A program made the translations under genes and the position numbers. The notes beneath the pieces are model-generated. The model searched no databases. It was not told the origin of the DNA and worked only from the letters and a program-made list of their open reading frames with translations. A stretch of DNA of 64,000 nucleotides from Enchytraeus crypticus (lineage: Eukaryota > Annelida > Clitellata > Enchytraeida > Enchytraeidae): NCBI GenBank assembly GCA_905160935.1, contig CAJHZI010000533.1:641501-705500 (forward strand), written 5' to 3'. Below are positions 44,201-49,833 of the stretch, in pieces; within the stretch, counting starts at the first letter, position 1, and each line of letters opens with the position of its first letter.

Positions 44201-47200
44201 ACAAAGCTAATTATCATACTCAAGTAATGTCCGTTTTGTTGCCTGGCCACTGATGAAGATAGACCTACAGTATTATGCACGTGTCGCAAGAGACTGCAGA
44301 GCAAGAACTGCGGAATCCAAATGGGAAACACCTCAGTATAGACATTTTTCGTAGGATTCCTACTATACATTAGGGTATTTTAAAGTACAGGTTTTTTTGA
44401 ATGTGCATAACGTTGTAATAACTTGTTAACTCATTAAGCGCTTGAATGCTCTTTATGGGACGTGAGCTCAGACTGTGTGTATGAATATCCACCCGGAACC
44501 TTTTTCTTGACAGAACACTATAGAGCTAATTGTCACACAGCCATTACATCGTCTTATTTTGATATATTTTATACTTTGCAAACATGACTTCATATACTGC
44601 CTACAAACTATCACAAGTGTCGATATTTATATGATATAAATACAATGTGATAGCAATGTGATAACAATGTGATACCAATGTGATAACAATATGATAACCA
44701 TGTGATTACAATGTGATAATGGTGTGATAACAATGTGATAACAATATAACAACTGTATGATGACAATTTGATACCAATGTGATAACAATGTGACAACAAT
44801 GTGATAATAATGTGATAACAATGTGATAACAATGTGATAACTATGTGATAACTATATGATGACAGTGTGATAACAATAATGATAATGTGACATCAATGTA
44901 ATGACAGGGTGAGAACAATGTGCTAACAATCTGATAACAATGTGATAACAGTGTGATAACCGAGTGAAAACATTATGATAACAATGTTTCAGATCATGCG
45001 GATCAAGACGAGCTGTTCAGATAACATGCTCTCAGCAGAGTGAGTATATAACTTGTAGCAATATTTCTAAGTTTCATATCATGTCTTGGCCGCTATAAAA
45101 TAAATCACCTTCAAACTGAACGTGTCTTCAAAGCGAAAGAAAAATAAGAGAAAGACAATGACAAAACCACAACAAATGCCATATTTTTCCAAGATACATG
45201 CTACGTTGAGGTATGGACAAGGCTTGGCCTTTATAACTAGATTGACAAGCTGATCAATGAAGTGCTCATAGAGAGCATCAAAAGCGACTTTGAGTAGGAA
45301 TATGTACCTTGGATCTGTCATTTGACACACACAACGTAACTGAGTATAGTGGTCCATAGTACGTGCATGTTGAGTTTTAGTTAATTTAAGCTTCAAATAA
45401 AGTTATGAATGATGTGCTATGAAGTGATGCGTTTATGTTGAAGTTGATGATTAATATTATAGTGATTATTTTATTCAAATTTAGTTGAGTTAGTTATGCT
45501 TTTGTAGGTATTTTAGAAGCAATTGTGCTTCCTGGCCTAGTATTGTTATGTTATGTACAGTTTAGAGTCTTCATAGACAGGTAAAGTGACTGTGAGATTT
45601 CTATAGTTTAAAATAGTTTAAAATTTGAATATGAGTGTTTGTTATTTGTTCCTAATTATATATTTTTGTTAATTTAATATACATGTATTTGTTAGTATAT
45701 TAGTTTAACATAATTTGTCACAGCTTGTGGACGTAAACTTCTGCCTGACGTTGCCATTGGGTATATAGTAAACGGTCAGCAAGCGAAAATTGGGTCATGG
45801 CCATGGCAAGCCCAGTTCTTTACTACAGAAAGTAATGGAGAATATTTCTTCTGCGGTGGCGCACTATTAAATGATCGATGGGTCCTCACTGCTGCTCATT
45901 GTGTCTTCGATTTGAACGATTATGTTGGGTAAGACTCGATTGTTTAAATGTTTGTTCGTAATACAGAAAAGAAACCTTGTCCATGGTTTACTTTGCATCA
46001 TTTACATGTAAATAATCAGTGCTTAAAGTTGGGGGAGAGGGACGTAGAGGAACTCAGTTCCACTAGCTCCCATTTTTTTAGGTATGTTTCTCCGCTAGGG
46101 CCCATAGTATATACTAGGAGACCTGCAAATACCTTACATAGGGTCTGAAAGACACTGGCCTTTCCAATACCTCGAATTCCCATTTTAACCACTGTCACTG
46201 CTGTATTTAGCAGTAGAATTATTCCAAAAAATGTAATTAAGTTGCCATAACTGGAAAACAAGTGTACAAATATAACTTAAGCATAAATACCTATAAATAT
46301 GTTTTTTTCCAATTGGACAACATAAATATGATAAATCATAACTTTTCAAGACTCAGTGTCATGAAGAGAAAGATTCTGGACCTCTCGATGCAACGTAATT
46401 GATTATTTTTTTGCTTATTAATTGATGAATTTAGAACTAAATAAACATCATTACGCGTGCTGTGACTTATTGTTTGACTTCATTGAACGTAAACCCTTAA
46501 ATACTAAAACACCATTCTATTTTGAAACGAATGCCATATATTACTAACTCGCAAATGTCTACTCAGTTAATGCGATGCCTTAGGTGTTTTCAATGGAAAT
46601 TAAATGCAAGGATCTAGAAATGTGTAGTCTACGTGTTATGCGATTGTCGTAGATTAGTAGTTCAAATCGTTATTATTGATAACATTAATTGGCCTTTCCA
46701 ATAGCTCGAATTCCCATTTTAACCACTGTCACTGCTGTATTTATCAGTAGAATTATTCCAAAAAATATAACTTAAACATAAATACCTATAAATAATTTTT
46801 TTCCAATTGGCAAACATAAATATGATAAATCATAACTTTTCAAGACTCAGTGTCATGAAGAGAAAGATTATGGTTATTATATGCTATAACCCCTCTTCAC
46901 CTCTATTGTGTTTTCCTCAGTTCATACATTTATGAGCTGTAAAACTTTTATACCAGCAAACTTTGGTTCTTAGAGGTACAACTGTAAGATTCAAAGTATA
47001 TGGAGGTCCAATTGATATTGACAGATGTGGCATAAAGCGGGAATGAAAATCAGTCGCCAAAAGAAACTAATCAAAATACCATTCCCTTTCTATATATCAG
47101 TTGCCTCTAAAAAAGACAGCATTCAATAATCTCGAAAGTGCAGCTTAATCACAGGTTAACTTCGGCGTCATTGTTAGCTTTTAGCTACTGTAGAATTAGT

Positions 47201-49833: not shown

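Follow-up and report, generated by a model that had tools for sequence, protein, structure and literature searches.

A gene with the layout of a type II transmembrane serine protease

We analyzed a 64,000-nucleotide stretch of the Enchytraeus crypticus genome (contig CAJHZI010000533.1; hereafter, the window), in which a 17-exon gene model at positions 23623–49833 of the + strand, based on splice signals and phase, encodes a protein of 1152 amino acids. Exon borders were picked by eye from the genomic sequence, with the upstream exons traced from splice signals and phase, and were afterwards checked with a script. Every one of the 16 introns is GT-AG, the phases agree, and the frame is open through all 17 exons, consistent with the clean splice frames claimed in the original prediction. 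The gene itself is real, and its structure and domains appear from sequence to be those of an animal. From N to C terminus, the predicted protein consists of a membrane anchor, a Ser/Thr/Pro-rich stalk, LDLa repeats, an SRCR_2 domain, and a complete S1 domain.

Exon 1 (23623–23923) contains the first in-frame ATG, a short N-terminal tail, and one strongly hydrophobic segment, for which the best 21-residue windows start at residues 56–60. An Arg-rich stretch approximately 50 residues in precedes this segment, which we read as a membrane anchor, not a signal peptide. The stalk is encoded by exon 2 (25321–26477), with Ser, Thr, and Pro accounting for 74% of residues 102–450. Exon 2 also holds the start of a possible SEA-like segment, the second part of which is found in exon 4 (30799–30974); the intervening 32-nt exon 3 (26785–26816) was placed by splice sites and phase only. 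Exon 5 (32185–32319) is Cys-rich and possibly EGF-like. Because neither SEA nor EGF yielded a Pfam match up to E 0.1 with the spliced protein, the SEA-like and EGF-like readings of exons 2–5 are by eye only.

The next five exons are LDLa-like by eye: exon 6 (33524–33628), exon 7 (34397–34516; 19.2 bits alone, below the Pfam cut-off of 24.1), exon 8 (37873–37986), exon 9 (39062–39175), which encodes the top-scoring repeat in Pfam, and exon 10 (41183–41299), which aligns with LDLa repeats of LRP2. Searched with the spliced protein, the LDLa profile scores 75.8 bits against that cut-off, with three stretches passing. The SRCR_2 domain (residues 808–889; 29.4 bits, cut-off 27) is divided by Pfam alignment among exon 11 (43067–43193; first part), exon 12 (43929–44039; middle), and exon 13 (44993–45039; end). 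Directly C-terminal to it lies the S1 domain, for which the Pfam Trypsin match to the spliced protein covers residues 900–1144 at 166.8 bits and spans the profile from 1 to 220 of 220. Four exons encode this part of the protein in frame to a TGA stop: exon 14 (45724–45928), with the propeptide Cys887, the activation sequence, and His57 (TAAHC); exon 15 (48086–48372), with Asp102 (NDIAL), Cys122, and Cys136; exon 16 (48847–48998), with Cys168, Cys182, and an altered 184–192 loop lacking Cys191; and exon 17 (49675–49833), with Ser195 (GDSGGP), Cys201, and a shortened 217–225 loop lacking Cys220. A search of NCBIfam returned no match.

A presumed cytoplasmic N-terminal part and an anchor near the N terminus, followed by a stem and a C-terminal S1 domain, constitute the type II layout, and the gene model and hydropathy in this way bear out the earlier assignment to the transmembrane serine proteases. 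Placement of an SRCR domain directly before S1 is a trait of the hepsin/TMPRSS subfamily, and it is found here. With TMPRSS2, enteropeptidase, and hepsin, the protein shares an N-terminal anchor, a stem, SRCR before S1, and the propeptide Cys, and with the first two it shares LDLa repeats as well; it differs from all three in its five LDLa-like exons and long Ser/Thr/Pro-rich stalk. When the last two LDLa repeats, SRCR, and S1 were searched together against the PDB, the top four chains were LRP2, matched via the LDLa repeats (E 7e-100 to 4e-95), followed by chains of TMPRSS2 and enteropeptidase (E 2.3e-40 to 4.5e-38), each of which, by the ranges tabulated, matches as one stretch over LDLa, SRCR, and S1.

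Repeats and frames resembling those of mobile elements lie within and around the gene. Intron 10 contains a 355-aa Tc1/mariner-like transposase open frame (41623–42690, + strand) with Pfam matches to DDE_3 (36.6 bits) and HTH_23 (34.1 bits), both above cut-off. A tandem array of 31.6 copies of the 11-base unit ACAATGTGATA, with 75% matches, occupies 44642–44987 and ends just before exon 13. Part of intron 14 is present twice, at 46156–46379 and 46690–46873, roughly 500 bases apart, in pieces of 81, 78, and 40 nt that are 96%, 96%, and 93% identical. Elsewhere in the window, a 570-aa open frame at 10548–12260 (+ strand), with Cys in its N-terminal part and a Ser/Thr/Pro-rich C-terminal end, has no Pfam match. 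Overlapping, retroelement-like frames occupy 56609–58468 (+ strand); two of these were searched in Pfam, of which one hits aspartyl protease families weakly, with scores under the cut-off, and the other gives no match.

Tyrosine at the zymogen activation site

As originally predicted, the residues AIGY (45753–45764) immediately precede IVNG (45765–45776), the expected N terminus of the mature catalytic chain. Both lie in exon 14, and the frame stays open between exon 13 and the stop codon at 49833. P1 of the activation bond is Tyr899 (codon TAT, 45762–45764). According to published work, type II membrane proteases are activated when cut after a basic residue (PMC4161349), in agreement with the class rule from which the original prediction had argued. 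Because P1 in this protein is Tyr and not Arg or Lys, activation of the class-typical kind is impossible. The predicted protein has the type II transmembrane layout, yet breaks with the rule by which that class is activated: TMPRSS2, enteropeptidase, and hepsin have a basic P1, and an Arg stands at the position of the Tyr in the hepsin alignment. The cysteines for the propeptide link to the catalytic chain, a link also part of the original prediction, are retained; the cysteine then numbered C918 is Cys887 in our model, an offset of 31 residues that presumably reflects a different upstream choice, and Cys122, with which it usually pairs, corresponds to Cys1023 (PICLP), as for the predicted C1-C122 disulfide.

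We considered whether the Tyr could be an artefact of an assembly error or a wrong exon border, the real protein having Arg or Lys before IVNG. The sequence derives from a single genomic source; no result of the analysis points to such an artefact. The Tyr899 codon lies inside exon 14, and of the six AG dinucleotides in the stretch scanned around the site (45694, 45702, 45722, 45767, 45778, and 45782), none would keep IVNG behind another residue, in line with the earlier judgment that this is not an obvious exon error. Neither motif searches on both strands nor a tblastn search with the catalytic domain revealed another S1 domain or an alternative exon in the window; beyond the four exons, tblastn matches were limited to three, with E values of 1.4, 2.7, and 8.2. 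We accordingly rejected alternative splicing that restores Arg or Lys before IVNG, there being neither a suitable AG near the site nor a second exon. A single-base sequencing error was likewise rejected, as no Arg or Lys codon can be reached from TAT with fewer than two substitutions. An assembly error is unlikely, and we regard the artefact explanation taken as a whole as very improbable.

Another candidate was a cut in the upstream CGRK followed by stepwise trimming by a dipeptidyl peptidase. We think this route unlikely, as such an enzyme should be halted by the Pro of LLPDVAIGY. A pattern search for orthologues gave 17 matches in a prokaryotic contig collection and one in a viral contig collection, none of which was confirmed, as expected from the kind of collection.

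An intact catalytic triad and an altered S1 pocket

The S1 domain is full length and has its catalytic triad in TAAHC, DIAL, and GDSGGP, as is characteristic of S1A proteases. Eight cysteines in the propeptide and catalytic part fit the four standard disulfides C1-C122, C42-C58, C136-C201, and C168-C182. C191 and C220 are both absent, a loss that the original prediction did not mention and that sets the protein apart from TMPRSS2, enteropeptidase, and hepsin, as do its pocket loops. Both S1-pocket loops are altered in length, with 17 steps from C182 to S195 and 8 from G216 to V227, compared with 13–15 and 11–13, respectively, in four PDB chains. These features of the triad, the cysteines, and the loops, like the gene model and the activation sequence, are direct observations. 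Because both cysteines of one bridge are gone and all others are kept, the pattern argues for a coherent evolved change as the probable origin of the loss, and not random decay.

The identity of residue 189, at the base of our reading of specificity, depends on the alignment. Asp1095, in the sequence ARDRN, and Asn1097 are the candidates for the residue lining the S1 pocket. HMMER alignments with elastase and chymotrypsin place the Asp of ARDRN outside position 189, whereas those with plasma kallikrein and hepsin place it at 189. Three MAFFT runs, two of which represent the same method since --auto picked L-INS-i, also put this Asp at 189, followed by a two-residue insertion, and counting back from G193 gives Asn, not Asp. 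Posterior marks in the HMMER alignments drop around 189, to between 4 and 8 in tenths beside the gap. A firm reading that residue 189 is not Asp, drawn from the elastase and chymotrypsin alignments, was withdrawn, as the kallikrein, hepsin, and MAFFT alignments contradict it. Given this dependence on alignment, we claim neither a non-tryptic pocket nor self-activation. Self-activation with a non-tryptic specificity, one of the routes named in the original prediction, would require a non-tryptic S1 pocket; if the kallikrein, hepsin, and MAFFT placements of Asp at 189 are right, they would point to a trypsin-like one that could not cleave after the enzyme's own Tyr.

Residue 226 is Ser and residue 228 is Leu. 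Ser226, together with an SVxTxV segment, resembles elastase 1bru, the top PDB match when the S1 domain is searched alone (E 3.2e-34; the next match is chymotrypsin, 2.4e-32). Ser226 and the altered loops lean toward a non-tryptic pocket, although position 226 alone is described as a poor predictor of specificity (PMC4646688).

Non-basic activation in S1 proteases and candidate routes to activation

Activation sites without a basic residue are documented in other S1 proteases, chiefly of insects. The 44 sites that we counted in Table 1 of an Apis mellifera study (three proteins counted twice; SP24, SP29, and SP47, which have no predicted site, and the SPHs left out) comprise 27 Arg, 7 Lys, 4 Leu, 3 Gln, 2 Phe, and 1 His, with no Tyr; the TM-labelled SPs with a site all have Arg (5/5, one marked "TM?"), and SP49 has the activation site SKTL|IVNG (PMC1761132). 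The account of 177 SPs and SPHs in Ostrinia furnacalis gives 114 trypsin-type sites, 16 of Phe/Tyr/Leu type, 21 of elastase type, 21 other, and 5 without a site (PMC10036332). For Tenebrio molitor, Tables 2 and 3 and 12 of the 15 rows of Table 4 (Table 1, of trypsins, being left aside) list His or Leu at non-basic sites, with Ile also named in the text; SerP449 (MSP) and SerP355 there each have four LDL repeats, a Sushi domain, and L|IVNG (PMC11172050). VDVL is given as the putative activation site of Helicoverpa SP41 (PMC7215089), and Drosophila ModSP is described as an autoactivating, chymoelastase-like enzyme that prefers Leu at P1 (PMC10732536).

The LDLa-rich insect examples (SP49, MSP, SerP355, SP41, and ModSP) make non-basic activation a known theme in soluble LDLa-rich initiators. 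The interpretation in the original prediction stands with respect to the type II layout, the rule of cleavage after a basic residue, and the clean frames; the site itself is less surprising than was then supposed, given the non-basic sites documented in other S1 proteases. What appears new, judging from the predicted protein, is such a site, with Tyr, in a membrane-anchored SRCR-type protease. In the literature searched, which covers few subscription journals, titles and opening lines of abstracts revealed no S1 protease that is membrane-bound and has Tyr at its activation site, and no membrane-anchored SRCR-type protease with a non-basic site was found there. A type II member that forgoes basic-site activation would need another switch, either itself or a protease of the chymotrypsin or cysteine type, and would stand apart from the network of trypsin-like enzymes at the cell surface.

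The explanation we favor, with a probability of about 60%, is that the protein is a type II transmembrane S1 protease with catalytic competence and that a non-tryptic cleavage of its Tyr899-Ile900 bond would activate the zymogen. Once freed by this cut, the IVNG N terminus would insert and form with Asp194 the pair known from other S1 enzymes, and Cys887-Cys1023 would hold the catalytic chain to the membrane-bound stem. We infer that the Tyr899 bond is cut, that cutting activates the enzyme, and that the activity responsible is, most likely, chymotrypsin- or elastase-like. One option is that the enzyme would cut itself while its LDLa/SRCR stem keeps it clustered at the membrane, in the manner described for ModSP/HP14; the other is a cut by a second chymotrypsin- or elastase-like protease. 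Several observations speak against this explanation: some alignments put Asp at 189, the 44 Apis sites include no Tyr, the closest domain layout in the literature examined, that of Apis SPH54, belongs to a non-catalytic homologue, and the sites of ModSP/HP14 have Leu, not Tyr, in soluble proteins with Sushi/Wonton in place of SRCR.

SPH54 has the listed layout TM-LC-EGF-13LC-5LDLA-SR-SPH (PMC1761132), close in domain order to our gene; the likeness is by listed layout only, and the triad motifs intact here are missing from SPH54 (ASYSC, NDEGAP). Other non-catalytic membrane homologues of similar layout are SPH56 in Apis (PMC1761132) and two in Tenebrio (PMC11172050). Such proteins are compatible with a zymogen that is never activated by cleavage, either because it works uncut or because it is a membrane protein in decay or with an adhesive role, and the lack of a basic P1, the missing C191 and C220, and the altered pocket loops point the same way. 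Intact triad motifs, IVNG, and GDSGGP, eight pairable cysteines, and a frame open over 17 exons argue against it, and we consider it unlikely.

Self-activation and activation in trans seem to us about equally likely. In the former, which we put forward tentatively, a chymotrypsin- or elastase-like enzyme would cut its own or a neighbor's Tyr899-Ile900 bond when clustered. The resemblance of Ser226 and SVxTxV to elastase 1bru and the missing C191 and C220 are in keeping with this, as is the precedent of ModSP/HP14, an autoactivating initiator group that joins LDLa repeats to a non-basic site; the possible Asp at 189 and the poor predictive value of position 226 alone (PMC4646688) weigh against it. 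The likeness to ModSP/HP14 is by description only: the group and our protein both have LDLa repeats and a non-basic site, and the catalytic chains of Apis SP49 and Tenebrio MSP likewise start with IVNG, but ModSP/HP14 are soluble, with Sushi/Wonton domains and Leu at P1, where our protein has an anchor, SRCR, and Tyr; Sushi gave no Pfam match here, and SRCR_2 is present instead. It is a doubtful extension that the protein might be a membrane-anchored, self-activating, non-tryptic protease, a cell-surface counterpart of ModSP/HP14 in which the pocket, with its C191-C220 bridge lost, and the activation site changed together. If the self-activating reading were true, the enzyme would start a cascade without a trypsin-like activator and beyond the reach of trypsin-type inhibitors.

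Activation in trans, which we likewise hold possible, would be the work of a different protease, either a chymotrypsin-like serine protease or one of the cysteine type; the enzyme itself could then be trypsin-like or have another specificity. The Asp that the alignments with kallikrein and hepsin and those by MAFFT place at 189 would suit this route. No candidate activator is known in the organism, and the site has Gly at P2, which papain-like enzymes do not prefer, a point against a protease of that kind. The mite zymogens proDer p 3 and proDer p 6 offer a precedent, as their propeptides end in non-basic residues and their activator is a cysteine protease, Der p 1 (PMC3978338). They too are S1 zymogens with a non-basic site, and differ from our protein in being probably digestive and in having no stem.

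In our protein, the non-basic activation site is coupled with loss of the C191-C220 bridge. The dipeptide propeptide of chymase-locus proteases is removed by cathepsin C. Mammalian proteases of that locus lacking the C191-C220 bridge are described (PMC4646688); they share this loss with our protein and have neither stem nor anchor.
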